Assembly: GCA_020726285.1 (NCBI GenBank)
Contig: DYSW01000012.1
Coordinates: forward strand, 1-38,161
Reading direction: 5' to 3'
Source: Melioribacter roseus
GTDB lineage: Bacteria > Bacteroidota > Ignavibacteria > Ignavibacteriales > Melioribacteraceae
DNA length: 38,161 bases
Below the pieces are notes generated by a model. It was given only the letters and a program-made list of their open reading frames with translations, was not told the DNA's origin and made no database searches. Every line of letters begins with the position of its first letter. The stretch's first letter is position 1. Positions 12,136 through 38,161 of this stretch are shown piece by piece. Both the position numbers and the translations under genes were made by a program.

Positions 12136-12150
12136 ATTTCTTTTTCTTTC

Positions 12151-12166
12151 TGTTTCACGTGAAACT
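12151..12166. promoter_or_regulatory. parS-like ParB binding site 1
   Basis: TGTTTCACGTGAAACT matches the bacterial parS consensus TGTTTCACGTGAAACA at 15 of 16 positions, with the full TTTCACGTGAAA palindrome. It lies in the short gap between mnmE and mnmG, the classic origin-proximal place for chromosomal parS. Confidence 0.88.
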
Positions 12167-12183
12167 TACAAGTTTCTGTTTTG

Positions 12184-12199
12184 TTTTTCACGTGAAATA
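12184..12199. promoter_or_regulatory. parS-like ParB binding site 2
   Basis: TTTTTCACGTGAAATA matches the parS consensus at 14 of 16 positions and keeps the palindromic TTTCACGTGAAA core. Its centre is 33 bp from that of site 1, about three helical turns, so two ParB dimers could load on the same face of the DNA. Confidence 0.75.
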
Positions 12200-12218
12200 A
12201 GTGTTTTTTTGAGTTTAA

Positions 12219-21100: not shown

Positions 21101-21185
21101 AAACTTCATCAAGCTTAAAACGAGAAGCGTTTTTGTTTAGAATTTCAAAAGAAATTTGGTTAATAGATTTATTTGATATTAACAT
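18129..21185 (-). CDS. AddB-like PD-(D/E)XK nuclease/helicase-remnant protein
   Basis: A 1018-residue protein related to AddB, the nuclease-bearing partner in AddAB-type DNA-end processing. The N-terminal half is a degenerate UvrD-like region without a Walker A motif. The C-terminal nuclease has ITKLETYAKCPFKFL (Cys near 731), FHSVMF, then IDRIDVDD and IIDYKTG near 880-895, and a Gln about 17 residues later. The final C-x2-C-x5-C (CKNCDFSSVC, near 995), together with the earlier Cys, forms the AddB-type Fe-S site. The ATG at 21185 was chosen for its GAGG ribosome site; it overlaps the CYTH gene by 17 bp. No addA is present in the window. Confidence 0.88.
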   Translation of the reverse strand: MLISNKSINQISFEILNKNASRFKLDEVLFFVPTNRKSRLLKKELISANESAVSDLFIETFSTFAKKFSQKIISKKMISETVSAFLLRQSSEEISPEYFSQYKNGGFPKGVLQRISAVILEYKRNGISPDFLLKEISENSPSQLEIRKTKDIASVFSLFEQKKFSLDLFDIGDAYQAINSLSKSDFQTNFLSFFPKVKFILFENFREFSLLEFELIQKLSSVGNITILLHFDFAKINENLFCEISSLLQKFSKNGFSFSTEKEIENPFISHIAKNLFSINPAKIATEKVEIKKSANLFEEIENVARQIKYLNLKEKVNLNSIAIVSNLPNEVSSLVGYVFSDFGIPINLSDRETLDNSNLISSIITILELQNGNYYYKDLLKTAFSKNLNLNLDGRNLKKIASEFKIFRGYNFWMEKILKAMKTEKRNLFAYEKAISDLQKIRQITDKFASAMTFSEFLNEIKLLISELGIVEKILINRNDSAERNLKILTTFLQNTEEIFSLFGEKEKNTKHSLSFLLKQLKSIVFWSRFNVKERSDSGVLVTSVDEIRGLTFDYVFLVNFVDSSFPTKYRPEIFLSKNLAKKENQHIVEERLKLFTVFKSFTKKLFISFSSKNNKKELSVSSFLEDLNEVFIFQKSDILLDSFIFSKKDFLFEIGKKVQFEKEKTDSFVFDFYRRVNFSEMRKIDKNSIYNGNLFADELNNLSENSLILMNSLTEKPFSITKLETYAKCPFKFLIEQILKIKLINNPEKEVNYLHYGSFFHSVMFNFFTYLKKNEIDINDKEAEEKLFLITEDLFNKYSFEDDIYFFTKEVLFGIDGKKENSILFHFLENERKNNSKKPSFFEVSFGMALGNEIDSEISSTEPFILDENKFFGKIDRIDVDDSNFEIIDYKTGEAKVEISKIINGYNLQLPFYSLVAEKLLSNTKHVNDFSYYLLKYKSTKFGKDSFSSRKRNKYHIEELIEITRENIKLFIENIKQGKFPLTKVNSFCKNCDFSSVCRISEIENSYQEENEEEGE

Positions 21186-21684
21186 ATTCCTCAATTAAAT
21201 TTTTGTACGAATTTTTGATTTGATTTTCGAAATCAAGCTCTAAATAATCTACAAGAAATTGAAATCGCAACCTTGCTTCAGATAAATCGTTTTCAACAAC
21301 CGTTTCCAACTCAATAAATTTTCCAAGATTTTCGACAACATCAAGATGAATTCTCGTGTTTTTGTAAACATAAACCACTCTATTTTTTGCAACAACAATA
21401 GTTTGTTTGAAAATATTGCTAAGAAACCCCAATGGATTATCTTCATTTTGTAAATGAAGAATTTTGTAATCGCTCCATCTTTCAGAATTTGTTTCGTCGC
21501 GTTTATAATAAATTAGTTCAGAATTATCCTTTAATAAACGCAACTTTAACAATCCAAAATTGGAATCAAAATAATAATCTCGCTGCTCAATCTCAAAATG
21601 CGAAGAAAAATCCAACTTTTTTATTTTCTCAAGATAAAAAATATGGTTTTCTACTTTTACTTTAATTTCTAAATTTTTTCCCAT
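21169..21684 (-). CDS. CYTH-domain protein (class IV cyclase/thiamine triphosphatase-like)
   Basis: The CYTH superfamily acts on triphosphate substrates, either hydrolysing them or cyclising ATP. The 171-residue protein opens with NLEIKVKVE, a variant of the N-terminal ExExK strand in which the middle Glu is Lys. It continues with QRDYYFDSNFGLLKLR (DxYFD and LKLR), LIYYKRDE and the C-terminal RIHLDVVENLGKFIELETVV, which carries the acidic metal-binding pair typical of CyaB-like members. The exact substrate cannot be decided. It is upstream of, and overlaps, the AddB-like gene on the minus strand, implying co-transcription. Confidence 0.88.
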   Translation of the reverse strand: MGKNLEIKVKVENHIFYLEKIKKLDFSSHFEIEQRDYYFDSNFGLLKLRLLKDNSELIYYKRDETNSERWSDYKILHLQNEDNPLGFLSNIFKQTIVVAKNRVVYVYKNTRIHLDVVENLGKFIELETVVENDLSEARLRFQFLVDYLELDFENQIKNSYKNLIEEYVNIK

Positions 21685-24081: not shown

Positions 24082-25374
24082 TTACATTTTATGTAATTTT
24101 GCAAATAAATCGTAGTCTTCAAAATCAATTATTTCAACTTCGTAAATATTACCGACTTTTAAATATTTATTTTTTGCTTCAATAAGAACATTACCGTCAA
24201 CTTCCGGAGCGTCCATTTTACTACGAGCAACAAAATATTTTCCTTCAATATCATCCACAATAACAGAAATTACTTTTCCAACTAAATTACTATTCTTTTT
24301 GTTAGAAATTTCTCGTTGAATTTCCATCAAAATCGACTCTCGTTCTTGTTTTATTTCTTCTGGAATTGCATCTTCAAGATTAAAAGCGGAAGTATTTTCT
24401 TCATGAGAATAAGTAAAAACTCCAACTCTATCAAATTCAATTTCCTTTACAAATTCGCATAATTCGTTAAAATCTTGTTCGGTTTCATTTGGATAACCAA
24501 CAATAAAAGTTGTTCGTAAAGTCAAATTTGGAATTTCTTTTTTCAGCTTAAAGATTAATTCTTTTTGTCGACTCGAAGAAATTCCTCTTCTCATCGATTT
24601 TAAAACATTCTCAGAAATGTGTTGTAGCGGAATATCAATATATTTCAGAATTTTTGGGTTATTTGCAATCTCGCGAATTGTTTCGTCTGGGAAATGAGAA
24701 GGATAAGCATAAAGCAAGCGAATCCACTCTATTTTGGGAATTTCGGAAAGTTTTGCAAGCAACTCGTGCAGATTTCTTTTTCCGTATAAATCAATTCCAT
24801 ATTCAGTTGTATCTTGTCCGATTATGATTAATTCCTTTACGCCTTTTTCTGATAAAAAAGAAGCTTCGGCAAAAAGCTCATCAATTGATGTCGAGCGATA
24901 TTTTCCTCGAATTAGCGGAATAGCGCAAAATGAACAAGGATTATCGCAACCTTCGGATATTTTTAAGTAAGCAAAATGTCGCGGTGTTGTAAGTTTTCTT
25001 TCTCCCAAAAGTTCGTACTTAAAATTTCCACCAAGATTTTCAATAATTCCACGGTAATCTTCGGTTCCAAAAAAAACATCAACTTCGGGAATTTCTGATT
25101 TTAATTCAGTTAAGTATCTTTCCGACAAACAGCCTGCAACAATTATTTTTTTGATAATGTCTCTTTTTTTTGCTTCAACAATTTCAAGAATTGTGTTGAT
25201 TGATTCTTCTTTTGCCGCTTCTATAAAACCACAAGTATTAATTAGCACAACATCTGATTGTTCAACAGAATCAACAATCGCAAAGTTATTAATATCTAAT
25301 TGCCGTAGAATTCGCTCGGAATCTACAATGTTTTTTGAACAACCAAGAGTAATTAAATTTATTTTTTGCATCAT
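24082..25374 (-). CDS. rimO: Ribosomal protein S12 methylthiotransferase
   Basis: Radical-SAM enzyme that methylthiolates an Asp of ribosomal protein S12. The 430-residue length is usual. The MTTase N-terminal domain binds one cluster through Cys12 (LGCSKNIVDSE), Cys48 (NTCGF) and Cys82 (AGCLSERY). The radical-SAM cluster uses Cys143, Cys147 and Cys150 in EGCDNPCSFC. LGCSKNxVDSE and IPLIRGKYRS distinguish RimO from MiaB. A TRAM-like beta domain closes the protein. Two adjacent ATGs begin the frame and either could be used. Confidence 0.97.
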   Translation of the reverse strand: MMQKINLITLGCSKNIVDSERILRQLDINNFAIVDSVEQSDVVLINTCGFIEAAKEESINTILEIVEAKKRDIIKKIIVAGCLSERYLTELKSEIPEVDVFFGTEDYRGIIENLGGNFKYELLGERKLTTPRHFAYLKISEGCDNPCSFCAIPLIRGKYRSTSIDELFAEASFLSEKGVKELIIIGQDTTEYGIDLYGKRNLHELLAKLSEIPKIEWIRLLYAYPSHFPDETIREIANNPKILKYIDIPLQHISENVLKSMRRGISSSRQKELIFKLKKEIPNLTLRTTFIVGYPNETEQDFNELCEFVKEIEFDRVGVFTYSHEENTSAFNLEDAIPEEIKQERESILMEIQREISNKKNSNLVGKVISVIVDDIEGKYFVARSKMDAPEVDGNVLIEAKNKYLKVGNIYEVEIIDFEDYDLFAKLHKM

Positions 25375-25599: not shown

Positions 25600-26562
25600 A
25601 TGAAAAGAAATCTAAAAATTGCAGTTTTGTTTGTGCTTTTTGCTACTTCACTTTTTGCACAAAAAACAGAAGTCGATAAAAATATTCCACATTATAAAAA
25701 AAATGGCAACATTAGTGGAAACGCAAGCAGTATCGGTTCAGACACAATGAACAATTTAATGACTCTTTGGTTGGAGGGTTTCAAAAAACATTATCCGCTT
25801 GTAAACATACAAATTGAAGGAAAAGGTTCGTCAACTGCTCCACCAGCATTAATTGAAGGAACCGCACAATTTGGTCCAATGTCCCGAAAAATGAAATCAC
25901 AAGAAATAGATTTATTCAAAAAGAAATATGGTTTTGAACCTACAATTATTAAAACTTCTTTAGATGCGTTGGCGGTTTTCGTAAATAAAGATAATCCAAT
26001 TAAAAGTCTTTCTTTAGACCAAGTAGATGCAATCTTTTCTAAAACAAGAAAAAGAAATGGAAGAGAAGTAAAAACTTGGGCTGATTTAGGTTTAAAAAAT
26101 GAATGGGCGGGCAAACCAATAAGTTTATATGGAAGAAATTCAGCTTCTGGAACTTACGGTTACTTTAAAGAAGAAGCCTTAAAAAAAGGTGATTTTAAAG
26201 ATGAAGTTAAAGAACAACCAGGTTCTGCCAGTGTTGTACAAGGAATTACAAAAGACAAATACGGCATTGGTTACAGTGGAATAGGTTATAAAACTTCTGG
26301 CGTAAAAGATTTGGCGCTAAGTGAAAAAATGGGTGAAGAAAGTTTTGATGGAAGTTATAAAAATGTAATTTCAGACAAATATCCACTTTCACGCTATCTT
26401 TATCTTGCAATTGCAAAATATCCTAAAAAACAGTTAGATCCACTTGTAAAAGAATTTATCAAATATATTTTCAGTTATGAAGGACAAGAAGTTGTTGTAA
26501 AAGATGGCTATTTACCACTTCCTTATGAAGTAATAAAAGAAGAATTAAAGAAATTAGATTAG
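25600..26562 (+). CDS. pstS: Phosphate-binding periplasmic protein
   Basis: High-affinity phosphate receptor of the Pst importer. A signal peptide covers about residues 1-20 (cleavage near LFAQ). Phosphate-loop regions seen are SSIGSDTMNNLM, GKGSSTAPPALIEGTAQFGPMSR and YGRNSASGTYGYF, with Ser/Thr/Arg/Asp side chains as in the PBP-like family. The 320-residue length is normal. It is the first gene of the pst-pho operon, behind the 11-bp repeats, and its stop nearly abuts pstC. Confidence 0.95.
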   Translation: MKRNLKIAVLFVLFATSLFAQKTEVDKNIPHYKKNGNISGNASSIGSDTMNNLMTLWLEGFKKHYPLVNIQIEGKGSSTAPPALIEGTAQFGPMSRKMKSQEIDLFKKKYGFEPTIIKTSLDALAVFVNKDNPIKSLSLDQVDAIFSKTRKRNGREVKTWADLGLKNEWAGKPISLYGRNSASGTYGYFKEEALKKGDFKDEVKEQPGSASVVQGITKDKYGIGYSGIGYKTSGVKDLALSEKMGEESFDGSYKNVISDKYPLSRYLYLAIAKYPKKQLDPLVKEFIKYIFSYEGQEVVVKDGYLPLPYEVIKEELKKLD

Positions 26563-26565
26563 TTG

Positions 26566-28752
26566 ATGCAAGAACTTACAAAATTTCAGAAACGATTAAA
26601 ATTTGAAAACAAAGTTGCCTCCGGGTTGATTACACTCGGAGGCTACGGCGTTATAGTAAGCGTTTTGTTAATTTTCTTTTTTCTTGTTTCAGAAACACTT
26701 CCCTTATTTTGGAAAACAAGTCTTGAAAAGGATTTTGAAATTAGTGGAAAAACTCCAATTTCAATTGGAATGGACGACTACAAGGAATTAGTTTATCAAG
26801 TTTACGAAAATGGAATAATTTCTTACTACAATATCAAACAAAAGAAAAATGTAAAATACGACACTCTTTCGCTTTCGGCGGGAGAAAAAATAATTTCGTC
26901 TTCATCTACATTGGAAAAAGACGAAATAGCATTTTGCACTGACTCGGGAAGAATTATTAACGCAGCAGTTTTACTTACGCCAGAATACAGCGGGAATTCG
27001 CGATCTATTGTTCCTAAGTTGGTGAATTACGAAGACTTTTATGGAAAAGAAAGTGGAAAATCATTAGAAAATTTAGCTTTTGATAAAAACGAAAATGGCA
27101 ACAAATTTTGGGTTTGGACAAGCGAAAAAAAGAATGTATTTATTAAAATTTTTGATTTAGAAGAAGATTTAAACTACACACACAAATTAACTGAACTTAC
27201 AGGCGGAACAAAAATTACTGCTTCCGCAATTAACGCCGAAACAGAAGTTCTTTTTCTTTCAGATGAAAACGGCGAAATATTCTATTTCGATATTTCAAAT
27301 TATGAATCGCCTGAATTAAAATCTCATTGGAAAGCAAGCAATAACGAAATCACAGCAATTTCATTTTTAATTGGTGGAAATGCGGTGGTTTTAGGAAGCA
27401 AAAAAGGTGAAGTAGAAATTTGGTTCCAAATACGCAACGAAAATGACGATGTCGTTTTTACAAAAACACAAGTCTTTGAAAATCACAATTCAGAAATAAC
27501 AAAAATTGTGCCTTCTCAACGAAACAGAACTTTTCTAACAGTTGACAAATCGGGTGAATTGCACTTAAATTATTCCACAACATCAGCCACAAATGTAAAA
27601 TTTGATAATGAGAAAAAAGGAATAAAATTGGTTGATTTTTCGCCAACCGCCGATGTAATTATTGTGGCAGACGACAATTCCAAAATAGGCTTTTTCAACC
27701 TTCAGAATGAACATCCTGAAGTAACCGTGAATTCCCTTTTTGGAAAAATTTGGTACGAAGGTTATTCAAAACCAGAATTTGTTTGGCAATCAACAGGCGG
27801 TTCAGATGCTTTTGAATCGAAAATGAGTTTAATTCCGTTAATATTTGGAACGTTAAAAGGCACACTTTACGCAATGCTTTTCTCTATTCCAATTGCCATT
27901 TTCGGAGCAATATACGTTTCGCAGTTTGCTCCCAAAAATCTTGCGGTAATTATTAAACCAATTATCGAAATTATGGCGGCTCTTCCTTCGGTTGTAATTG
28001 GATTTCTTGCGGGACTTTTCTTTTCGCCATTATTTGAAAAAAATTTACTACTTATTGTTTTACTTTCTGTGGCAGCGCCAATTCTATTTGTAGTTATAAT
28101 TTCACTTTGGGGTTTAATTCCAGAAGATAAGCGAAGAAAATTTTCAAATACTTGGGAACTTACTTTTGTCTTTATTGCAATGGTTTTGGTTTTTATGATA
28201 TTCTGGGGTATTTCCGAACCATTAGAAACCTTGTTTTTTGATGGAAATGTCAAAAATTGGCTTTATTCAAATTTTAATATTGGTTACGACCAACGAAATA
28301 GTCTTGTTGTGGGAATTGCTCTTGGTTTTGCAGTAATTCCAATAATATTTACAATTACAGAAGATGCACTTACAAACGTTCCAAAATCATTAACTTCTGC
28401 TTCGCTTGCTTTGGGCGCTAGTAAATGGCAAACAGTTCAACGCGTTGTTTTGCCCGCCGCTTCAGGTGGTATTTTTGCCGCAATTATTTTGGGTTTAGGA
28501 AGAGCAATTGGCGAAACTATGATTGTGTTAATGGCAACAGGAAATACTCCAATTTTAGACTTGAGTTTGTTTAACGGTTTTAGAGCAATGAGCGCCACAA
28601 TTGCTGTTGAAATTCCCGAAGCGCCAGTTGGTGGTTCGTTGTACAGAGTTTTATTTTTAACAGCTCTTTTATTACTAATTTTTACATTTATTGTGAACAG
28701 TTTGGCTACGTACATCGGCGATAAACTTCGCAAAAAATATGCTCGATACTAA
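26566..28752 (+). CDS. pstC: Phosphate ABC permease with beta-propeller-like insert
   Basis: Membrane subunit of the Pst importer, 728 residues, more than twice the classic PstC. After an N-terminal helix (about 18-44), residues 55-390 form a non-membrane domain. Its repeats read like WD40 blades, such as ASAINAETEVLFLSDENGEI, NAVVLGSKKGEVEIW and TFLTVDKSGELHL. The permease domain follows with six helices and the EAA-type loop ASLALGASKWQTVQRVVLP, then GLGRAIGETM. Long PstC forms are known in gammaproteobacteria. ATG at 26566 was chosen over the TTG just before it. Given a single preceding helix, the insert is probably periplasmic. Confidence 0.93.
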   Translation: MQELTKFQKRLKFENKVASGLITLGGYGVIVSVLLIFFFLVSETLPLFWKTSLEKDFEISGKTPISIGMDDYKELVYQVYENGIISYYNIKQKKNVKYDTLSLSAGEKIISSSSTLEKDEIAFCTDSGRIINAAVLLTPEYSGNSRSIVPKLVNYEDFYGKESGKSLENLAFDKNENGNKFWVWTSEKKNVFIKIFDLEEDLNYTHKLTELTGGTKITASAINAETEVLFLSDENGEIFYFDISNYESPELKSHWKASNNEITAISFLIGGNAVVLGSKKGEVEIWFQIRNENDDVVFTKTQVFENHNSEITKIVPSQRNRTFLTVDKSGELHLNYSTTSATNVKFDNEKKGIKLVDFSPTADVIIVADDNSKIGFFNLQNEHPEVTVNSLFGKIWYEGYSKPEFVWQSTGGSDAFESKMSLIPLIFGTLKGTLYAMLFSIPIAIFGAIYVSQFAPKNLAVIIKPIIEIMAALPSVVIGFLAGLFFSPLFEKNLLLIVLLSVAAPILFVVIISLWGLIPEDKRRKFSNTWELTFVFIAMVLVFMIFWGISEPLETLFFDGNVKNWLYSNFNIGYDQRNSLVVGIALGFAVIPIIFTITEDALTNVPKSLTSASLALGASKWQTVQRVVLPAASGGIFAAIILGLGRAIGETMIVLMATGNTPILDLSLFNGFRAMSATIAVEIPEAPVGGSLYRVLFLTALLLLIFTFIVNSLATYIGDKLRKKYARY

Positions 28753-28754
28753 TT

Positions 28755-30395
28755 ATGAATAAAATAATTACATTCTGGAAAAAAGGGGATTCCTACATTT
28801 TACTAACGGCTGGCGGTTTGCTCTTTTCGCTTGCGATGGTAATTTTTATGATTTCTATAATTCTTATAAAAGGATTTGGTTCATTTTATGTAAGCGATGT
28901 TGCTGAAATAAAAATGAAAGACAATACAATTTATCTTGCAGAAATATTAGAAAAAGAAGAAGTTGTATTACAAAGTGAATCAGGAAAAAGCTACAAGCAA
29001 GAGCAAACAAATATCAAAATTGCAAATAGAGATATTTTTGACCAAGATTTTAAATGGATAAATTCCCAAGAAATTTCCAAAATTGAATATCCACAAAATG
29101 TAACAGTTTTTGAGAGATGGGAATACGGCAATCTTATCGCTTATGTAAGAAATCTGAATTACAACGGCAAAGTTTATCTAACTAGTGATAAGGATTTTTG
29201 GGATACTTTCTCGAGGGCTTTTGAAAAATCTGAAGAAAATAAATCTGAAAAAGAAAATCTTGAAGAAGAACTAAATGATGTATTGTCGCCAGTTAGCGAA
29301 ATTCAGCGGGAAATTGCTTTAATGGAAATAAACTTTTCTTGGAAAACAAAAGAAATTGAAAAATTAAAGCAAGAAGAAGGAACGCTTCAAGCTGAAATAA
29401 ATTTTCAAATTGAACAATTGAACAAGAAAATAGAACAAAAAGTAATCGAAAATTCAGAAATTTATGCAATAGTTCAATCTGGTGATGGAACAGAAATTAC
29501 ACTTGAGCTAGAAAAAGTTTACAGATTTTGTCGCCCAAATGATATGAATTTTATTGCTAAATCCGGACTTTACTTAACAAAAATATGGGAATATTTGGTA
29601 GAAGACCCGCGAGAATCAAACACAGAAGGTGGAGTTTTTCCCGCAATTTTTGGAACAGTAATGATGGTAATTTTGATGTCGATAGCCGTAGTTCCTTTTG
29701 GTGTTCTTGCGGCACTTTATCTTAATGAATACGCAAAACAAGGATTTGTAACACGTTTAATTCGACTTGCAATAGCAAATCTTGCAGGAGTTCCATCAAT
29801 AGTTTATGGAATTTTCGGGTTAGGATTTTTTATTTACTTTTTGGGTGGAACGATAGACCAACTTTTGTTTTCATCAAAATTACCCGAACCAACTTTTGGA
29901 ACGGGTGGAATTTTATGGGCTTCGCTTACTTTGGCTTTGCTAACTTTGCCTGTTGTTGTTGTTGCAACAGAAGAAGGAATTCTTGCTGTTCCAAAAGCGA
30001 ATAAAGATGGTGCTTTGGCTTTGGGTGCAACAAAGTGGCAAATGATAAGAAAAATAGTTTTACCGAATGCAATGCCAGGAATTTTAACTGGAGTAATTTT
30101 AGCAATAAGCCGAGGCGCTGGCGAAGTTGCTCCGCTAATGATAACTGGAGTTGTAAAACTTGCACCAACATTACCATTCGACACATCATTCCCGTTTTTA
30201 CATCTCGACAGAAAATTTATGCACTTAGGATTTCATATTTACGATGTTGGGTTTCAATCGCCAAACGTTGAAGCCTCGCTTCCTATGGTTTACACTACAG
30301 CATTGTTGTTGATCTTTATTGTAATCACATTAAATTTGAGTGCAATTTTCCTAAGAAATTATTTAAGAAAGAAATTCAAAACATCCGCTTTTTAG
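28755..30395 (+). CDS. pstA: Phosphate ABC permease with coiled-coil insert
   Basis: Second membrane subunit of Pst, 546 residues against about 300 for the classic form. Helix 1 lies at about 15-42. Residues 45-285 form an extra domain with a charged coiled coil near 155-230 (SEENKSEKENLEEELNDVL, then IEKLKQEEGTLQAEI). The permease core holds GVLAALYLNEYA, NLAGVPSIVYGIFGLGFF and the EAA loop GALALGATKWQMIRKIVLP, then ISRGAGEVAPLMITG. The gene begins two bases after the pstC stop. The extra domains of PstA and PstC may contact each other (inference). Confidence 0.94.
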   Translation: MNKIITFWKKGDSYILLTAGGLLFSLAMVIFMISIILIKGFGSFYVSDVAEIKMKDNTIYLAEILEKEEVVLQSESGKSYKQEQTNIKIANRDIFDQDFKWINSQEISKIEYPQNVTVFERWEYGNLIAYVRNLNYNGKVYLTSDKDFWDTFSRAFEKSEENKSEKENLEEELNDVLSPVSEIQREIALMEINFSWKTKEIEKLKQEEGTLQAEINFQIEQLNKKIEQKVIENSEIYAIVQSGDGTEITLELEKVYRFCRPNDMNFIAKSGLYLTKIWEYLVEDPRESNTEGGVFPAIFGTVMMVILMSIAVVPFGVLAALYLNEYAKQGFVTRLIRLAIANLAGVPSIVYGIFGLGFFIYFLGGTIDQLLFSSKLPEPTFGTGGILWASLTLALLTLPVVVVATEEGILAVPKANKDGALALGATKWQMIRKIVLPNAMPGILTGVILAISRGAGEVAPLMITGVVKLAPTLPFDTSFPFLHLDRKFMHLGFHIYDVGFQSPNVEASLPMVYTTALLLIFIVITLNLSAIFLRNYLRKKFKTSAF

Positions 30396-30405
30396 TTGAG
30401 AAATT

Positions 30406-31221
30406 ATGAAAATTAATGTTCAAAATTCAATATCTGCAAGTTTTACAACCGATTTATCGAAAGAAAAAATCATTCTCGAGACAAAAAATGTTGATTTATG
30501 CTACGTTCCACAAGTAAGAACTCTGACAAATGTTTCAATTCAAATTCCTGAAAAGAAAGTAACGGCGTTCATTGGTCCTTCGGGATGCGGAAAATCGACA
30601 CTTTTGAGATGTTTTAATAGAATGAATGATTTAATTCCCGGAATTTCTATTAAAGGTTTAATAACTATTGATGGAATAGATATTTATTCACCCGAAACAA
30701 AATTGGAAGAATTAAGAAAGAAAGTTGGAATGGTTTTTCAGAAATCAAATCCGTTTCCAATGGGAATTTGGGAGAATGTTGCTTTCGGTCCGAAAGTAAA
30801 CGGAATTAGAGAAAAAGCAGAATTAGATGAAATGGTTGAGTCTGCACTAATTCAAGCAGATTTGTGGAAAGAAGTTAAAGATAGATTGAATAATTCGGCA
30901 TTGGATTTATCTGGTGGACAGCAACAACGATTGTGTATTGCTCGCGCGTTGGCAAACAAACCCGAAATAATTTTAATGGACGAACCAGCGTCGGCTCTCG
31001 ATCCAATTTCGACAAACAAAATTGAAGAAACAATAGATGAATTGCGAGAAAATTATACAATAATTATTGTTACTCACAACATGCAACAAGCGGCTCGAGT
31101 TTCAGACTACACAGCATTTATGATGATTGGCGAAATGATAGAGTTTAATGCAACATCAAAATTATTTACAAATCCAGAAAAAAAACTAACAGAAGATTAT
31201 ATTACGGGTAGATTTGGTTAA
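30406..31221 (+). CDS. pstB: Phosphate ABC transporter ATPase
   Basis: Cytoplasmic ATPase driving Pst. The 271-residue length is usual. Walker A is GPSGCGKST followed by the PstB-specific [11 protein letters not shown]. The Q loop is [16 protein letters not shown], the signature [16 protein letters not shown], Walker [14 protein letters not shown] and the H loop [13 protein letters not shown]. The N-terminal 25 residues are an extra tail of no known role. It is fourth in the operon. Confidence 0.97.
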
Positions 31222-31244
31222 AAATGTTCAACTAAAGGAAAATT

Positions 31245-31910
31245 ATGAGTGAAAAATTTCAAGATATGTTAGAACAAGTAAATAAAGATATTATCTTTCA
31301 GGCAAATGAAGTGGAAGATGCTTTATTTAAAGCCGTAAAATCATTTAAAATTCAAAATGAAAAAATGGCGGAAATTGTAAAGAAATTAGATAGAACAATA
31401 AATTTTCGCGAAGTAGAAATTGAAAAGAAAATTCTCGATTTACTTGCAACACAACAACCGGTTGCAATTGATTTGCGATTTATTGTTGGCGCATTAAAAA
31501 TGAATAATGATTTAGAAAGAATGGCGGACCATGCAAAATCGATAGCAAAAATTGCTTTAACTCTTTCCAACGAACCAATGATTTCAGAAGCAGAAGGTGT
31601 AATTGATTTAGGAAAAACAACACGGTTAATGGTTCACGATGCAGTTCAATCATTTATCCAAAGAGATTCTGATTTAGCGAAAGAAGTTCTTGAACGCGAC
31701 AATATTGTTGATGAAAAATTTGCTAAAGTAACCGAAATTGTTTACACCGCCGTTGAAATAAATCCCAAGAAATTCAAGCAAGGCTATGAAATAATTAACG
31801 CAGCAAAACATCTTGAAAGAATTGCTGATTTAGCAACAAATCTTTGCGAAGATGTTGTTTTTATGAACGATGCAACCATTTTAAGATACGGTTTTTATAA
31901 ACAGGATTAG
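31245..31910 (+). CDS. phoU: Phosphate-signalling regulator PhoU
   Basis: Links Pst transport to the PhoR-PhoB two-component system by binding metal and PstB/PhoR. The 221-residue all-helical protein has the two PhoU repeats with the conserved E/D-rich motifs (NFREVEIEKKILDLLA; RDNIVDEKFAKV) and ALKMNNDLERMADHAKSIA in the first half, mirrored by AAKHLERIADLATNLCEDV in the second. AAAGGA precedes the ATG at a good distance. It sits directly between pstB and the response-regulator gene. Confidence 0.97.
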   Translation: MSEKFQDMLEQVNKDIIFQANEVEDALFKAVKSFKIQNEKMAEIVKKLDRTINFREVEIEKKILDLLATQQPVAIDLRFIVGALKMNNDLERMADHAKSIAKIALTLSNEPMISEAEGVIDLGKTTRLMVHDAVQSFIQRDSDLAKEVLERDNIVDEKFAKVTEIVYTAVEINPKKFKQGYEIINAAKHLERIADLATNLCEDVVFMNDATILRYGFYKQD

Positions 31911-31913
31911 AAT

Positions 31914-32588
31914 TTGTCAACCAAAGTATATGTTGTTGAAGACAACCCGGATATTTCTGAATTAGTTGAATTTAATCTTTCTACAAAAGGATTTGAAGTT
32001 GAAGTAATTCCAGATGGTTATATAGCCTACGAAAAAATAATGGATTTTCCTCCCGATTTACTGATTCTTGATTTGAATTTACCAGGAATGTCGGGAATTG
32101 AAATATGCAAATACATTCGTAATTCAAACCAAATTAAAGATTTGCCAATTATTATGCTTACGGCTCGTTCGCAAGAAACGGACAAAGTAATTGGTTTGCA
32201 AGCAGGGGCTGATGATTATATTACAAAACCATTTGGAATAAAGGAATTACTTGCTCGCATTGAAGCTCTTTTGAGAAGGACAAAGAAAAGTCATAACCAA
32301 ATATTTAAAATCAATAATCTCGAAATCAACTTTGACTCACATTCTGTTGTTTGTCACGGAAAAGAAATTCACATTTCCGCAAAAGAAATGAAATTTATGA
32401 AGACTTTGGTTGAAGCAAATGGTAGAGTTTTATCGCGGTTTGATTTAATTGAAAATATTTGGGAAAAAAATTCAGTTCCAGATGAACACACGGTTAATGT
32501 AACGGTTAAACGACTTCGTGATAAATTGGGCGAATGTAAATCGATAATCAAAACTGTGCAAGGTGTTGGTTATCGTTTGAATAATTAG
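31914..32588 (+). CDS. phoB: PhoB-type response regulator
   Basis: Two-component regulator of 224 residues: a receiver domain (1-120) and a winged-helix OmpR/PhoB DNA-binding domain (about 130-224). The acidic pocket includes Glu9-Asp10, the phospho-acceptor is Asp53 (LILDLNLPGMSG), and ITKPF carries the conserved Lys. Translation must start at TTG: the receiver strand STKVYVVED begins right there, and no ATG or GTG is available between the phoU stop and it. A rare start could hold its level below that of its neighbours. It is the likely binder of the 11-bp repeats upstream of pstS. Confidence 0.95.
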   Translation: MSTKVYVVEDNPDISELVEFNLSTKGFEVEVIPDGYIAYEKIMDFPPDLLILDLNLPGMSGIEICKYIRNSNQIKDLPIIMLTARSQETDKVIGLQAGADDYITKPFGIKELLARIEALLRRTKKSHNQIFKINNLEINFDSHSVVCHGKEIHISAKEMKFMKTLVEANGRVLSRFDLIENIWEKNSVPDEHTVNVTVKRLRDKLGECKSIIKTVQGVGYRLNN

Positions 32589-32600
32589 TTAAATATTCCC

Positions 32601-34373
32601 ATGAAAAGATTATCTAACGGTATTTTAAAACGATTTTTTTTTATTTCTGTTATTGGAATTGTTTTTATTAACATTTTTGTTTGGGTGGAAATAAACAGCG
32701 AACTTGATTCATTTCTTCACGAAAAAGCATTAAAACACACTGAAATTCTTACTGATGTTTACGAAGGAATTCAAGATTCCACAATTAATTCTGATTCAGC
32801 TAAAATTTTGGCGGTTGTAAAAACATCAAAACTACTTTCTGTTCAAATGGCAGTGTTAAATAAAAGTGGGAATTTGGTTTATCCAACAAATTATTCACTA
32901 AATCCCGACAATTTTCCAACAAAAATTAGCTATTTGTACTTACCCGAAATCCAACAAGCAATGGAAGAAGGAAACGGAAAAAACTTCAGATTTTCAGATA
33001 AAATGAAGAAAGAAATTTATTTCTTCTCATCAGTAATTCGTAAAAATGGCAGAATGGATGGATTTTTTCATCTATCAGTTTCTACTTTTGAATACAATAA
33101 ACATCTGTTTTTTGCCAAATTGATGATAATTTTGGTCGATTCAATCTTATTGCTAATGATGTTTATTATTTTCTTAATCGTAAAAAAATACATCACAAAA
33201 CAGACAACTTTATTGATCGAAGAAGTAAAAAATTCGGCAACTGGAGATGAAGTTCTTCCGTTAAAATATCACAATTTGAATGAATTTAACCAAATTTCTT
33301 TACAGCATAATCATATCGTTAATTTGTTGAATGATAAAAATATGAAGGCAATAAAAAAAGAGAAGCAATTGCTCGATTTGCTAAACTCGCTAAGTGAAGG
33401 AATTGCAGCTTTTGATAAAAAAGGTAAATTAGTTTTCTCAAACTCAAAATTCAAAAATATTATCAATCCAAAACCGACGCATAAACTTGAGCCAACAGTT
33501 TTTGATTTGATTGATTTTCCGCCGATGATAACTGATATTAATAAGTTTCAAACTCAGGGAAAAGAGGAACATGCTCGAGTAAAATATTGGAACGAACATA
33601 TTATTGAATACACAATAATTCCATTGACTTTGGACGATAAAAAAAATGGTATGATTTTAATATTTCGAGATGTAACTGAAGTTGCAAGGTTGGAACAAAT
33701 CAGAACAGATTTCGTGGCAAATGTTTCTCACGAATTCAAAACGCCACTGACTTCAATTCGCGGTTATACAGAAACTTTGCTCGATGGAATACGAGATGAA
33801 AATGTTTTAAACAAGTTTTTATCAAAAATATTAAAGCAAACGCTTTATCTCGAAAACATGGTTTCTGATTTGCTTAAACTTTCAAGAATAGAAAAGAAAG
33901 AAGTTTACCAAATTTCTGAAATTGAAATTACTCCAATTTTGACCGAAATTTATGAAGAATTTCGCCAAAAAGTGGAAGAAAGCGGCTATCAATTTATTTT
34001 TGATAACACAATTCCCCAAAATGTAATTGTAAATGGCAACAAAGTTTTAATTTCCACGATAATTTCAAATTTCCTTTCGAATGCAATTCAATATTCTAAA
34101 CAAAATGGAAAAATTACAATGTATTGTTTTGTTAATAAGGAATTTTTGCAAATTGAAGTAATAGACGAAGGAATTGGAATTGACGAAGCTGAAATTGACA
34201 GGGTTTTTGAAAGATTCTATCGCACAAAAGACGCAAAAGATTTATTTAGCACTGGAAGTGGTTTGGGACTTTCGATTGTGAAAAACAGCATTGAATTGCT
34301 TGGTGGAAAATTTGGAGTAGAAAGCAAAAAGAATGTTGGCTCAAAGTTTTGGATAAGTTTAGCAAGAAAATAG
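32601..34373 (+). CDS. phoR: PhoR-type sensor histidine kinase
   Basis: Membrane kinase of 590 residues paired with the response regulator next to it. TM1 lies at 12-29 and TM2 at about 173-195, with a roughly 140-residue sensor domain between them. A PAS-like domain covers about 255-360 (LNSLSEGIAAFDKKGKLVFSN). HisKA follows with NVSHEFKTPLTSIRGY (His377), then the ATPase with SNFLSNAIQYS, DEGIGID and GSGLGLSIVKNSIELLGG. Such PhoR proteins are thought to report on Pst/PhoU state, and the large sensor domain is variable in the family. It is the last gene of the operon; a hairpin follows. Confidence 0.94.
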   Translation: MKRLSNGILKRFFFISVIGIVFINIFVWVEINSELDSFLHEKALKHTEILTDVYEGIQDSTINSDSAKILAVVKTSKLLSVQMAVLNKSGNLVYPTNYSLNPDNFPTKISYLYLPEIQQAMEEGNGKNFRFSDKMKKEIYFFSSVIRKNGRMDGFFHLSVSTFEYNKHLFFAKLMIILVDSILLLMMFIIFLIVKKYITKQTTLLIEEVKNSATGDEVLPLKYHNLNEFNQISLQHNHIVNLLNDKNMKAIKKEKQLLDLLNSLSEGIAAFDKKGKLVFSNSKFKNIINPKPTHKLEPTVFDLIDFPPMITDINKFQTQGKEEHARVKYWNEHIIEYTIIPLTLDDKKNGMILIFRDVTEVARLEQIRTDFVANVSHEFKTPLTSIRGYTETLLDGIRDENVLNKFLSKILKQTLYLENMVSDLLKLSRIEKKEVYQISEIEITPILTEIYEEFRQKVEESGYQFIFDNTIPQNVIVNGNKVLISTIISNFLSNAIQYSKQNGKITMYCFVNKEFLQIEVIDEGIGIDEAEIDRVFERFYRTKDAKDLFSTGSGLGLSIVKNSIELLGGKFGVESKKNVGSKFWISLARK

Positions 34374-34433: not shown

Positions 34434-36425
34434 TTATAATTTGAACATATTTAGGAATTTATCATCAACAACAACTTCTGTAATATTTTCTGAATTTAGA
34501 ACATTAAAGTAAGATTTGATATTGTCAATTAGCTTTTCGCCATCTACATATTCGTATTTTACTCGATTTAGGAAAAGTTCAACTCTTTCAACGGGTTGTC
34601 GCATCATATCGAATGATAATTTAGCGGATTCATGTTTGTTTTGATTTACCCAATTTATCGCTTCTTTTAATTCATTTAGAAATAACATTGATTCTTCTTT
34701 GTTGGCGTTGTAAAATTCTTCTTTAATTACAACTCCAGCATTCGGAAAGCTACCATAATTTTGATTAACCTGATTCCAAAGCTCGTTGAATGAAATTATC
34801 GAGATTTCTTCACCCATTTCTTCAAGAATTTTAATTGCAAAACTTGCTTCTGGTTCGCGAAGAATACAAGTGTCGGAAGTACCACGAACAAAATCTGCAT
34901 AAATCTGTTCTGGTCTGCCAAATGGTTTCCCGTAAACAAATGTAAAATCATCTGAATTATAGCCGAGCGATTTCATTAAGTATTTAGTAATTTTCGTAGG
35001 CGGTGCTTCTTCGAAAAGCGGTGTATTTATCTTTTTCCCCAAAATATCAGCAAAAGAAGTCGCTTTATAACGAGTAAGTAAATAGAAATTATCCCAAACA
35101 AAAAGAGCTGGAATTTTGATGTTCGAATTCTTCAATTTTGCGGCAACAATCAGAGCTGAAAAGCTAATGTCGGCTTTCCCACTTGTTATCCAAGCGAGAT
35201 GTTTTTCGGTTTCTTCCCAAACTTTAAGCTCTTTGATGTTGAAAGTCGAACGAATTTTATCGGATTGCAACAATCTCATAATTACTGGATAAGCAACTGG
35301 AGTTGCAGATTGAATTATAACATCTTTTTTATTGCTGTTTGACACTTCACCTTTTTCTGTAATTTTTTTATATAAAAAAACGTAATTTTCCGAATCGGTA
35401 ACACGCTGTACTTTGTGGTCAAATCCCATTTCAGTCAACATATTGATTATTGGAAAAGGCACAAATCTTTGGATAAGGATAAATCCGCTTCCTTCTTCAG
35501 TGCCATAAGCTGTTTTAATAATTGTGTCGAAAGGATCGGTTGTTAAATATCGAACATCAAGCACTGGAAAAGTAGAAGAAATTCTTTCCCAATTTTCATT
35601 CATTTCAAGATTCACAGAATTTGGGTTAAAAATTGAAATTCTGTAGTCTTTCCCTTTTTCTACATTAAATTGATAATTTAATCCTTCGGCAACTTTTAGC
35701 AATTCAATTGGATTATTTATAGAAATTATTACTATCGATTCTTGAGGTTTTAGATTGTTTACTCGCTCAATAATTTCGGGCATTGTGTCGGAATTATAAA
35801 TAAATCTGTCGTTGTTTTCATTCCAAGTAATTTCGCTTCCTAAAAGTTTTTCATCCAGATTCCCATCTTGTGAAATGCAATCTGGGAAAAATTCAACTAA
35901 CTTTTTCTCTTTTCCTATTGCTTTATTCAAAGTGTGTAAAATTTCGCATACAGATAAACCAGTTACGTTAGCTGCTTCTGTAAAAGTAGCAAATCTTGCT
36001 AAAGTGTTATAAAGTATGGGATTTTGCATTTTCTTAAATTTTGGAGAAAGTGAAACAAGAACATCTTTTAGTTGTGGATATTTATCCAAAGTTTCTTTGA
36101 TGTTAGATTTTGCAGTTATAATATCTGTCGTGTCGATTTCTACATCAATTAATTGTGAAATTTGTTTCTCTTTTGATTTTTCTTTTTCATCATTTGATGA
36201 GTATTTTTCCGTTTCTAAAGTTAGCTCGCTTTCCACATCAATATATTTTATTGCATCAACTGGGCAAGTTTGAATTGCTTCATCGGCAAGTTCTAATTCA
36301 AGTTCGGCTAAAGGTTGCTTGACAACAAAAGCATAAGAATTGTCTTCGTTCATCGTAAAAATTGATTCTGCAACATCAACACAAGCTTTACAAGCAATAC
36401 AATCATTTTTATCTACTATAAGCAT
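34434..36425 (-). CDS. Ferredoxin-DUF1858-DUF2249 x2-SBP fusion protein
   Basis: A 663-residue cytoplasmic protein without signal peptide. Residues 1-65 are a single-cluster ferredoxin: C9-x2-C12-x2-C15 and C54-Pro. A charged linker precedes a DUF1858 domain at about 91-165 (TLDKYPQLKDVLVSLSPKF, then NPILYNTLARFATFTEAA). Two DUF2249-like domains follow at about 205-265 and 287-352; the second is clear (FPVLDVRYLTTDPFDTI, GFILIQRFVPFPIINML). Residues 368-655 resemble a substrate-binding protein of the NitT/TauT (NMT1/SsuA-like) fold. DUF1858 and DUF2249 proteins often accompany nitric oxide and denitrification genes, and the qNOR gene lies directly upstream. AGGAAG precedes the ATG. Domain calls are by motif; the function is unknown. 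Confidence 0.82.
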   Translation of the reverse strand: MLIVDKNDCIACKACVDVAESIFTMNEDNSYAFVVKQPLAELELELADEAIQTCPVDAIKYIDVESELTLETEKYSSNDEKEKSKEKQISQLIDVEIDTTDIITAKSNIKETLDKYPQLKDVLVSLSPKFKKMQNPILYNTLARFATFTEAANVTGLSVCEILHTLNKAIGKEKKLVEFFPDCISQDGNLDEKLLGSEITWNENNDRFIYNSDTMPEIIERVNNLKPQESIVIISINNPIELLKVAEGLNYQFNVEKGKDYRISIFNPNSVNLEMNENWERISSTFPVLDVRYLTTDPFDTIIKTAYGTEEGSGFILIQRFVPFPIINMLTEMGFDHKVQRVTDSENYVFLYKKITEKGEVSNSNKKDVIIQSATPVAYPVIMRLLQSDKIRSTFNIKELKVWEETEKHLAWITSGKADISFSALIVAAKLKNSNIKIPALFVWDNFYLLTRYKATSFADILGKKINTPLFEEAPPTKITKYLMKSLGYNSDDFTFVYGKPFGRPEQIYADFVRGTSDTCILREPEASFAIKILEEMGEEISIISFNELWNQVNQNYGSFPNAGVVIKEEFYNANKEESMLFLNELKEAINWVNQNKHESAKLSFDMMRQPVERVELFLNRVKYEYVDGEKLIDNIKSYFNVLNSENITEVVVDDKFLNMFKL

Positions 36426-36448
36426 TTTTTCTTCCTATTAAAATAAGA

Positions 36449-36468
36449 GGACTGATATTACTCAGTCC
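36449..36468 (-). other. Intercistronic hairpin between qNOR and fusion genes
   Basis: GGACTGA (36449-36455) and TCAGTCC (36462-36468) form a perfect 7-bp stem with a 6-base loop in the 51-bp gap. On the minus strand it is followed by TCTTATTTT, only moderately T-rich. It may be a weak terminator or an RNA-stabilising hairpin setting the ratio of the two products. Confidence 0.5.
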
Positions 36469-36476
36469 CCAACTAA

Positions 36477-38161
36477 CTAACTATTTTTTTTGGCAAAATA
36501 GGTTTTTGTAACTAAATCATAAAAAATGGTGATTCCACCAAGAAGCATTAAAGTATCTGGAACAATTCTAAACCACATCCAACCTTTTAGAGGCTCAACT
36601 GCAGAACGTAATCTTGTATAGAAATATCCCATTTCCTGAGCAATCCTTGTCTGTTCAATACCAATTATATAAGTAGGTAAAGCAAATAGTAAGACACCGA
36701 CTGTTAATAACCAGAATCCGATTTTACTTATTTTTTCATCCCAGACTAAGTTGTTTGCAAGCGAGTTTGTACGAGATGCCATATATAGAAAAGCTAATGA
36801 GATATAACCAAAAGCTCCAAGCAAAGCAATATGTCCGTGAGGCATAATTAAGTAAGTACCGTGAGAATAGTAGCTTATTGTTGGAGTGTTAATTACCATT
36901 CCAAAGAAACCAGCGCCAATCCAGTTTAAAATTGCCGAACCGGAAATCCACATAAAAGGAGTTGCAAATTTAAATCCTTCTGCACTATGAACTTTTTCAC
37001 GATAATTTTTCATTGCTTCTACAATCATTAATGCAAGTGGAACTGGTTCAAGTGCCGAGAAAATTCCACCGATTGCAATCCAATATTCATCAAGACCTTG
37101 CCACCAATAGTGATGTCCAACACCAAGTGTTCCACTCATCATAATTAAAATAAGTTCGAAGAGCATTACTCTGACAGCGGTTTTGTTTGAAATTAGTCCT
37201 AACGAAACGGTGAAGAAAGCAATAACACCAGCGGCAAAAAGTTCGAATGTTAATTCTACCCAAAGATGAATTACCCACCAACGATAATAATCATCAACCG
37301 TAAAGTTTGGCACTACTTTATGAATAGGCATCATTCCAGCAATATATAAAGTGGCAATTGCGAAAGCAGACCAAATAATTGTGCTAACAATTGGATTGTT
37401 TGTCGCTGCTTTTTTGATTAATGAAATAATGAGCAAAAACCAGAAAACTAAGCCGATAACAAGTCCAATATCCCAAACTCTACCAAGGTTTATAAGTTCT
37501 CGACCTTCGTTTCCGAGCCAGAACCAAGTATCACGCATTTGTCCTGTTGCGCCCATATATAAACCTATGATACTTCCAACAGCAACTACTAAAAGAGCAG
37601 TCCAAAGTACATCAATCAACCAAGGAAATTTGTGGTCTTTATTTGCAACCCAAGGAGCAATTAACAACCCGCCAACTAACCAACCCACAGCAACCCAAAG
37701 AATAGCAAGTTGAGTATGAATTGAACGCAAAACATTAAACGGTAAGATTCCTTGAGAAACAATAAAATCTTGAGTAGGTTCAGTGTAAAGATGAGCCAAA
37801 TACCCGCCAATTAGAAGTTGAGCTAGAAATAATGCAGCAACTATTGGAATGTATTTCATCAATTTTTTTTGTGATTTGAACAAGCTTGTTATTTCCATAG
37901 GTTTTTCTAAATCTTCTTTAGAATCCTTTTTTAATAAGAATTCGTATGAAAGGAAAATCACAAAGATTGTTAATGTCCACAAAATTAAGAATTCCCACAA
38001 TGAAATTTTGTGTGATTCGAAAGTTAAATCTTGGTCTAACATTGGTTCTGGTGGCCAGTTGTTCGACCAAGTTCTGTTAGTCCCGGGACGTAATGAAGAC
38101 GCAACCAATTGCGACCAATCAACAAAAGCGGCAATTTTTTTTGCTTCTTCTGGTCTAATAA
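36477..38161 (-). CDS. norZ: Quinol-type nitric oxide reductase, qNOR (5' part outside window)
   Basis: Reduces NO to N2O with electrons from quinol in the inner membrane. The frame runs to the window edge without a start: the upstream codons still read PEEAKKIAAFVDWSQ, then RPGTNRTWSNNWPPEP, the qNOR N-terminal extension absent from cytochrome-c-dependent NorB. About 550 residues of an expected 750 or so are visible. Haem/FeB ligands and active-site residues seen are the His in RSIHTQLAILWV, HLWVELTFELFA (His and Glu), GVGHHYWWQG (paired His), FSALEPVPLAL (Glu) and HGTYLIMPHGHIALLG (His pair). The fusion gene follows after 51 bp on the same strand. The TTG at 38106-38108 is an internal Leu codon, not a start. 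Confidence 0.95.
   Translation of the reverse strand, partial: IRPEEAKKIAAFVDWSQLVASSLRPGTNRTWSNNWPPEPMLDQDLTFESHKISLWEFLILWTLTIFVIFLSYEFLLKKDSKEDLEKPMEITSLFKSQKKLMKYIPIVAALFLAQLLIGGYLAHLYTEPTQDFIVSQGILPFNVLRSIHTQLAILWVAVGWLVGGLLIAPWVANKDHKFPWLIDVLWTALLVVAVGSIIGLYMGATGQMRDTWFWLGNEGRELINLGRVWDIGLVIGLVFWFLLIISLIKKAATNNPIVSTIIWSAFAIATLYIAGMMPIHKVVPNFTVDDYYRWWVIHLWVELTFELFAAGVIAFFTVSLGLISNKTAVRVMLFELILIMMSGTLGVGHHYWWQGLDEYWIAIGGIFSALEPVPLALMIVEAMKNYREKVHSAEGFKFATPFMWISGSAILNWIGAGFFGMVINTPTISYYSHGTYLIMPHGHIALLGAFGYISLAFLYMASRTNSLANNLVWDEKISKIGFWLLTVGVLLFALPTYIIGIEQTRIAQEMGYFYTRLRSAVEPLKGWMWFRIVPDTLMLLGGITIFYDLVTKTYFAKKNS

Follow-up and report, generated by a model that had tools for sequence, protein, structure and literature searches.

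The window analyzed here, a complete contig of 38,161 nucleotides from Melioribacter roseus, carries near its end, on the minus strand, a gene for a 663-residue fusion protein that joins in one chain a ferredoxin, a DUF1858 domain, two DUF2249-like domains and a domain of the substrate-binding protein (SBP) class, and that lies downstream of norZ, the gene for a quinol nitric oxide (NO) reductase (qNOR). The middle module is already known from DrpB of Thermus thermophilus, and the fusion represents a DrpB-like core newly joined to a ferredoxin and an SBP domain. The reading tentatively favored here is that of a cytoplasmic accessory or regulator of nitrogen-oxide (and related terminal-acceptor) respiration, in which the DrpB-like core would couple the redox state of the ferredoxin with ligand occupancy. 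DUF1858/DUF2249 proteins recur beside denitrification genes, and the joining of the core to redox-type and ligand-binding-class domains in a single chain makes the signal input of DrpB-type proteins a testable question. If confirmed, such a function would add to NO handling a layer so far unrecognized, in Bacteroidota in the wide sense and, among them, in the relatives of Melioribacter. An initial annotation, made from the window sequence, treated the domains as known singly and the fusion as not known to be described. No fusion to a ferredoxin or an SBP was found in the accessible portion of the DUF2249/DUF1858 literature, a coverage outside which most subscription journals fall; what was covered of PMC13370916, PMC12914433 and PMC5492636 contains nothing on this protein, and the fusion was not found in literature on nitric oxide reductase with ferredoxin and PepSY, or on cytoplasmic NMT1-type binding proteins with a ferredoxin domain.

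Domain architecture and distribution

The gene and its parts are as follows.

34434-36425, minus strand: fusion gene, 663 residues, in the order [4Fe-4S]-type ferredoxin, DUF1858, DUF2249-like, DUF2249, NMT1/THI5-type binding-protein domain
36246-36416, minus strand: one-cluster ferredoxin domain, residues 4-60, with Cys 9, 12, 15 and 54 (Fer4_13, E 5e-17)
35940-36119, minus strand: DUF1858 domain, residues 103-162 (PF08984, E 1e-13; PDB 2fi0, E 5e-5)
35877-35948, minus strand: family-specific C160, H164 and C183, residues 160-183, a candidate redox or metal site
35628-35807, minus strand: first DUF2249-like domain, residues ~207-266 (hhalign to the second copy, models)
35388-35564, minus strand: second DUF2249 domain, residues 288-346, TusA/SirA fold (PF10006, E 5e-7)
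34437-35336, minus strand: NMT1/THI5-type SBP domain, residues 364-663, with family-specific invariant residues (assigned from relatives and predicted fold)

The open reading frame (ORF) starts with ATG and runs for 663 codons, and the plus strand over the same interval is full of stops; a chance ORF is excluded by eight full-length relatives, 91% and 57-61% identical, in which the order of domains is unchanged. Residues 4-60 also match one-cluster ferredoxins in the PDB and pass the one-cluster test, having a CxxCxxC motif and a distant CP motif (C9, C12, C15, C54), while C160, H164 and C183 sit at or just beyond the end of the DUF1858 match. The second DUF2249 copy scores 29.8 bits against a Pfam cut-off of 29.5, and the first (~200-275) has no Pfam match of its own in the window protein. 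When the two copies were compared as profiles from the family alignment, hhalign gave a probability of 96% (E 1.8e-9, 56 columns), as against only 1.2% for the first copy with the DUF1858 profile. Both copies show the same strand-helix order in AlphaFold2 models, which were built from 9 rows each and are of moderate quality (mean pLDDT 67 for the whole protein and 74 for the middle). In fold comparison the second copy resembles TsuB/YeeD (Z 9.1) and TusA (Z 7.7); the model of the middle module gave no Foldseek match at E <= 0.001, so that clear fold relatives exist for the second copy only. Pfam and the copy-against-copy profile comparison together bear out the four-cysteine ferredoxin, the DUF1858 domain and the two DUF2249-like domains of the initial annotation. 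Its statement that there is no signal peptide is likewise upheld, as the ferredoxin occupies the N-terminus and a search for a hydrophobic N-terminus or transmembrane (TM) segment by hydropathy found none (maximum 19-residue Kyte-Doolittle mean 1.25).

Profile and protein searches identified members in 44 genomes. Five of these belong to the window's own family (two, G053 and G043, contain fragments only) and seven stand behind the named loci L032-L038. Further searches gave 4 strong matches among 140 in the family of G430 (G430 itself included), 28 among 393 in its order (three already named), 3 among 173 in the family of G434 (one already named) and 4 among 71 in the family of G428 (two already named). 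The named records among the members are Bacteroidota, Melioribacter or 'Chlorobiota' metagenome-assembled genomes (MAGs), that is, Bacteroidota in the wide sense. In an evenly drawn sample of the phylum, 2 of 395 genomes had a match to the SBP profile, and these two were among those known before; the rarity is approximate because only some candidates per genome were scored. None of 77 pattern matches in viral contigs was a relative, and none of 21 plasmid records reached 80% query coverage, the best 15 of the 21 being part matches to Thermus DrpB-like proteins and SBPs. One record (L157, NZ_CP119142.1), with 17 features annotated, is listed as a plasmid; at 2.17 Mb it looks like a chromosome.

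Alignment was performed with 41 sequences, after removal of L031, which covers the L042 locus again, of three fragments (L040, L041, L043) and of the gene split into L141 and L142. The ferredoxin is present in 36 of the 41, with all four cysteines in every one of the 36, and is missing from L127, L132, L137, L146 and L039. C160, H164 and C183 are kept in 40 of 41 members, the exception again being L039 (G045, 11015-12607), which lacks the first DUF2249 copy as well and lies beside a gene for an MltF-like lytic transglycosylase; judged by these losses, L039 probably represents a diverged branch or one of different function.

The DrpB-like core and a proposed mode of action

As described in the available portion of its report (PMC6282519), Thermus DrpB has the same order of one DUF1858 and two DUF2249 domains as the middle of the fusion protein, and shares with it a cytoplasmic location and a context of nitrogen-oxide respiration. 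It differs in being only 273 residues long, with neither ferredoxin nor SBP domain, and in being tied to nar, where the fusion is tied to norZ; C160, H164 and C183 of the fusion family do not occur in the Thermus DrpB sequence. The same source states that loss of drpB derepresses the nar and dnr promoters, that loss of drpA and drpB together makes nar expression nitrate-independent, and that the cytoplasmic protein can bind the membrane, and in its authors' model DrpB restrains the nitrate-respiration genes until nitrate is present. A Thermus protein with DUF1858 and two DUF2249 domains was also found here beside nar genes. Elsewhere, so far as the portions consulted of these reports go, denitrification induces four DUF2249 proteins in Haloferax mediterranei (PMC11218638) and the NnrR regulon of Bradyrhizobium includes a DUF1858 gene (PMC6710368). 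The DrpB architecture and these denitrification links are the reason that the fusion is taken to be a DrpB-like accessory or regulator. Location among nitrate or NO respiration genes, as in DrpB, is a feature of 8 of the 44 genomes, the window included, and not of most members.

In the mechanism proposed, DUF1858 and the two TusA-fold DUF2249 domains would form a module for output and interaction, as in DrpB of Thermus. The N-terminal ferredoxin, if it binds a cluster as its cysteines predict, would render this module redox-responsive or supply it with electrons. The C-terminal domain, of importer-SBP descent, would stay in the cell and most likely close on a small charged ligand, with the invariant residues described below probably lining the cleft. 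Ligand occupancy and cluster state, presumably coupled, would then jointly set the action of the core, and the direction of its control, on a partner, which in the window may be qNOR, for most members without a ferredoxin the adjacent Hcp, and in the fused forms the PepSY_TM protein.

In the window's own family, loci L046-L058 encode DUF1858-DUF2249(-DUF2249) proteins without ferredoxin or SBP domain. These occur with Crp-type regulators, COX1-like membrane proteins and DUF59 genes, and others of these loci have DUF438-hemerythrin-PAS genes and, by eye, cytochrome-like genes (one example of each was run against Pfam).

A binding-protein domain retained in the cytoplasm

From the window sequence alone the SBP match is weak (PF02621, E 0.17-0.25), and a search of the whole window genome with PF09084 (NMT1) did not report the fusion protein; PF09084 matches 8 of 10 members tested (best E 6.6e-8), the window sequence not being among them. 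The predicted fold of residues 363-663 is that of a type II SBP, closest to 3hn0 (Z 16.9 over 252 residues, 3.5 Å), followed by PqqT (Z 16.8), SsuA (16.4), Thi5 (14.8), MqnD (14.0) and the NrtC/CmpC regulatory domains (13.0-13.3). The SBP-like domain of the initial annotation is thus carried by the relatives and by the predicted fold. NMT1/THI5-type SBPs (SsuA, PqqT, and binders of thiamin and HMP precursors) share this fold and a weak sequence likeness with the domain, which differs from them in being cytoplasmic, in lacking a signal peptide and an ABC partner, and in its invariant residues. The NMT1-like fold of the NrtC/CmpC regulatory domain is likewise kept in the cytoplasm, where it serves regulation; NrtC and CmpC belong, as ABC ATPases, to nitrate or bicarbonate importers, unlike the fusion protein, in which Pfam finds no ABC domain.

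Within the fusion, conservation is highest in the SBP domain, with 27% of columns at least 97% identical, compared with 23% in DUF1858, 22% in the ferredoxin, 18% in DUF2249 and 4% in the first DUF2249 copy. Nine residues (T406, E407, K408, H409, D445, N446, R504, R523, E526) are invariant in all 41 fusion domains, and the same positions carry other residues in 8 of 8 periplasmic relatives, whereas E405, W444, E524 and S528 are common to most periplasmic relatives too, a sharing that reflects descent. The 41 fusion domains form a single group relative to the eight periplasmic relatives (support 98/96, midpoint root). That the domain is the most conserved and has invariant residues of its own speaks for a new function under strong constraint.

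The closest alignable periplasmic relatives are importer binding proteins. Six weaker matches from the search of the G430 family (E 1e-11 to 1e-18) are exported SBPs, which were not counted as members and were used as periplasmic relatives. In the six genomes of the Prolixibacteraceae family (G430 family) represented by L158-L163, the exported SBP is accompanied, by eye, by an ABC permease in 6 of 6 and an ATPase in 5 of 6, together with a receptor-like gene of 737-788 codons and an 84-residue protein (one of the latter, when run, proved to be TM1266-type); the ligand of this importer set would be a clue to the pocket of the fusion protein. An SBP relative on a Bartonella plasmid lies with a TonB receptor, a permease, an ATPase and NnrS (as annotated), and a gonococcal record shows a similar set by eye.

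This ancestry raises the idea that the protein is a displaced importer component still feeding a transporter, in keeping with its similarity to ABC binding proteins. The missing signal peptide makes that exceedingly improbable, as does the neighborhood, where inspection by eye recognized no ABC partner beside members, the one exception being an ABC exporter pair in L141 that looks unrelated; the only gene that PF09084 picks up in the window genome is a different one, TRAP-TAXI-like in appearance. The importer reading was rejected for its lack of an export signal and of any importer partner recognized by eye, ABC families not having been searched genome-wide. An enzymatic role for the domain, in the manner of Thi5, MqnA or MqnD and with the ferredoxin feeding its reaction, is also quite unlikely. 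Thi5 does come first in Foldseek (E 6.5e-10), MqnD is among the fold matches listed above, and invariant His, Lys, Arg and Glu residues are present; however, Thi5 positions 62 and 66, which we take to be its catalytic Lys and His, face Ser and Thr in a weak alignment (E 0.11), and biosynthetic neighbors were not recognized by eye. As far as this comparison goes, a Thi5-like enzyme is not supported.

The norZ neighborhood

Two further features lie upstream of the fusion gene.

36477-38159, minus strand: 3' part of a gene for a quinol NO reductase of the norZ type, truncated at the end of the contig (COX1, E 2e-56; NorB_cytochrome_c-like, E 2e-7)
36447-36470, minus strand: hairpin resembling a terminator or attenuator, located between norZ and the fusion gene, a 9-pair stem followed by a T-rich stretch

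The qNOR gene that the initial annotation placed just upstream is indeed there, on the same strand and across a 51-bp gap, with the correction that its ORF is interrupted by the contig end: the window is the whole of contig C84, and the 5' part of norZ lies with an Rrf2 gene on contig C82 of the same assembly. The gene order of the split norZ (L068, 8817-9275 on C82, and 36477-38159 in the window) matches that of the intact locus L042. The eight genomes in which norZ lies within three genes of the fusion are G000 (the window), G029, G428, G429, G1244, G671, G825 and G892; in G825 the contig ends within norZ, leaving a piece with 63% identity over 106 residues, and the norZ of G892 is divergent. 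An Rrf2 gene accompanies norZ in 7 of the 8 (in G000 on the neighboring contig C82), the G825 contig ending before it would be reached, and these Rrf2 proteins have three conserved cysteines (C-x6-C-x5-C). A hemerythrin-PAS gene stands between norZ and the fusion in L134, and in L151 a COX1-family gene lies upstream of the fusion and a gene for a PAS protein downstream. In the tree the norZ-adjacent members fall into three supported separate sets (the window with L042; L134 with the PepSY fusions; and a set with L145) plus L149; with its deep forks open, the tree does not separate repeated gain of norZ adjacency from repeated loss.

The hairpin is kept in L042, the 91%-identical relative, and similar hairpins follow norZ in L032, L033 and L153 (by eye), where the gap is longer; shuffled regions contain 1.0 ± 1.2 such sites each, so that the hairpin is weak evidence alone. 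Co-transcription of norZ and the fusion gene is not assured, because this terminator-like structure lies between them, and expression of the fusion may depend on read-through or on a promoter of its own.

Co-occurrence was assessed with the qNOR of G029 as query, counting as close relatives those with at least 67% identity, and with 36 fusion-free control genomes taken in even steps from a sample of G430's order. A close norZ is present in 23 of the 44 fusion genomes and in 0 of the 36 controls, 4 of which contain remote qNOR relatives (31-32% identity). Fisher's test gives p = 3e-8 (against 0/36) or 1e-4 (against 4/36), uncorrected for shared ancestry; within one order the count is 14 of 28 against 0/36 or 4/36 (p = 8e-7 or 8e-4, again uncorrected). 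These values are not probabilities of independent gain, given that the 44 fusion genomes come from several groups and the controls from one order, and that many are draft MAGs. A close norZ or Hcp occurs in 30 of the 44 (counting the G825 piece). The nitrogen-oxide link is real but partial.

Hcp and PepSY_TM settings

Four of the five aligned ferredoxin-less members (567-569 residues) have Hcp within two genes (one of these calls was run against Pfam, giving Prismane at E 1.6e-180, and the others were made by similarity). A Crp/Fnr-type gene is present in three of these four loci, the contig of the fourth, L132, beginning just upstream, and in L146 a separate ferredoxin-like gene lies between the ferredoxin-less fusion and Hcp. 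Both settings, with norZ and with Hcp, are compatible with a role in supplying NO reduction or in sensing for it.

In L032, L033, L152 and L153 the fusion is extended N-terminally by a PepSY_TM protein, to a total of 1151-1164 residues, and in L145 and L149 a separate gene immediately upstream encodes PepSY_TM; Pfam finds no PepSY_TM region in the window protein itself. That PepSY_TM and the ferredoxin occur as separate genes in some loci and fused in others supports the accessory or regulatory function favored here. Hydropathy and charge predict four TM segments for the PepSY_TM partner, with the ferredoxin end cytoplasmic, and five histidines (9, 32, 198, 259 and 461, as numbered in L032) are invariant across all 6 sequences. 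Among known systems, a close comparison is with the PepSY_TM metal reductases FoxB and CrpH, whose PepSY_TM with conserved His resembles that of the four in-frame fused relatives and has no counterpart in the window protein; a ferredoxin, a DrpB core or an SBP domain is not mentioned for them in the part of that report consulted (PMC13038864). FrdX, a ferredoxin-like protein genetically tied to Hcp, recalls the fusion's setting and is reported from other phyla in the accessible part of its description (PMC1274295).

An alternative is that the protein serves mainly in electron delivery, in which the ferredoxin would pass electrons from cellular donors to a membrane partner (PepSY_TM hemes, quinone, or directly qNOR or Hcp) and the SBP domain would only dock or gate. 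Such delivery and the repair of metal centers considered below are serious rivals of the DrpB-like reading, although each taken singly is unlikely. For delivery speak the fusion of the ferredoxin to the predicted cytoplasmic end of a four-TM protein with five conserved His, and the reports, as far as seen, that FoxB binds two hemes through such His and reduces a periplasmic iron complex, that CrpH supports heme-copper oxidases (both PMC13038864), and that hcp pairs with the ferredoxin-like frdX in other phyla (PMC1274295). Against this, a PepSY_TM partner, fused or adjacent, accompanies only 6 of 41 aligned members, the SBP domain and not the ferredoxin is the most conserved part (27% of columns against 22%), and members that lack the ferredoxin persist beside Hcp. 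The PepSY_TM fusions nonetheless hint at a possible electron route from ferredoxin to the membrane beside the quinol NO reductase. A more speculative and quite improbable form is a ligand-gated intracellular electron switch, in which the captive SBP domain would close on a nitrogen-oxide-derived or metal-nitrosyl ligand and so open or shut electron flow from the ferredoxin through the DrpB-like core and, in the fused forms, a PepSY_TM heme conduit to NO-reducing enzymes. To our knowledge no such use of an SBP as a ligand-gated electron switch has been described, and if true it would be an apparently undescribed one.

A perfect palindrome, TAATCT-n6-AGATTA, lies upstream of all four PepSY_TM fusions. 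It was considered as a shared Rrf2 operator and rejected as such: no full-strength copy precedes any of the Rrf2, norZ, Hcp, Crp or other fusion genes examined, and no common regulon is claimed.

Metal-cofactor-like settings and points that weigh against a role in NO handling

Several observations weigh against the nitrogen-oxide function. Eight loci (L034, L035, L036, L038, L121, L122, L128, L144) have instead ferredoxin-MinD/ParA ATPases and NifX-like genes, in genomes that are mostly without norZ and all without a close Hcp relative, an indication that the fusion may have a role beyond nitrogen oxides. Hcp is less frequent with the fusion (6 of 44 genomes) than among the controls (14 of 36), which leaves no general Hcp link and only a local one; neither a close norZ nor Hcp is present in 14 of the 44. 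The ferredoxin-less L039, with its MltF-like neighbor, adjoins neither gene, its genome having norZ elsewhere and no Hcp. The hairpin separates norZ from the fusion gene, the best fold matches of the SBP domain (3hn0, PqqT, SsuA; Z 16.4-16.9) are tied and predict no ligand, and no DNA-binding domain was found in the fusion protein, from which it follows that any regulation would have to be exerted by way of a partner. The NO-handling role suggested in the initial annotation therefore stands in part: norZ within three genes in 8 of 44, the excess of close norZ over the controls, Hcp beside most ferredoxin-less members and the DrpB architecture of the core favor it, whereas the genomes with neither gene, the lack of Hcp enrichment and the eight metal-cofactor-like loci do not. 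Many other member contigs are short or have no recurrent neighbor.

The eight loci are the principal evidence for maturation or repair of metal centers, a function that appears improbable overall. The protein would restore iron-sulfur or heme-iron sites hit by NO, the SBP domain holding a metal complex or cofactor precursor, the ferredoxin giving an electron, and C160, H164 and C183 passing metal or sulfur. In keeping with this, the ParA/NUBPL-like ferredoxin ATPases and NifX-like genes lie within six genes of the fusion (one call of each was run against family libraries and the rest made by similarity or by eye). Also consistent are a DUF59-like gene in five loci (by eye) and an ArsP_2-like gene in four (one run), FeS-assembly (DUF59) genes beside DrpB-like proteins in both the window's family and Thermus, and the TonB receptor that accompanies the periplasmic SBP relative of Bartonella, other relatives having receptor-like genes by eye. 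To these may be added, from the parts of the reports consulted, a haloarchaeal iron-sulfur carrier with DUF2249 (PMC11218638) and DUF1858 in some SufT proteins (PMC4982691). On the other side, no scaffold or chaperone motif is shown, and in the norZ/PepSY_TM and Hcp loci inspection by eye recognized no assembly gene up to five genes away. The DUF2249 copies, moreover, have no Cys at what is presumably the catalytic-Cys position of TusA.

Among the same loci, cydAB lies within six genes of the fusion in L034 and L035. Genes for an octaheme tetrathionate-reductase-type cytochrome and a b561-PAS protein occur near the fusion in L035 (4862-9781), directly upstream, and in L036 (2-9884), 7-8 genes away; enzymes of this octaheme (OTR) type are counted among nitrite reductases in the part of the source seen (PMC10949509).

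Remainder of the window

The initial annotation also stated that the window has no cognate ABC permease or ATPase. An ABC permease and ATPase are in fact present (~28755-31221); they are of phosphate (pst) type by eye, so that the absence of a cognate pair holds. They belong to a phosphate-type cluster (25600-34373, plus strand, by eye), convergent with the fusion gene, that contains two permease-like ORFs, an ABC ATPase, a PhoU-like protein, a response regulator and a histidine kinase (the kinase alone was run against Pfam). Pfam further identifies three minus-strand genes.

18129-21194, minus strand: PD-(D/E)XK nuclease-type protein, 1021 residues
22480-23763, minus strand: GWxTD-domain protein
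24082-25374, minus strand: radical-SAM/TRAM protein, presumably of the MiaB kind

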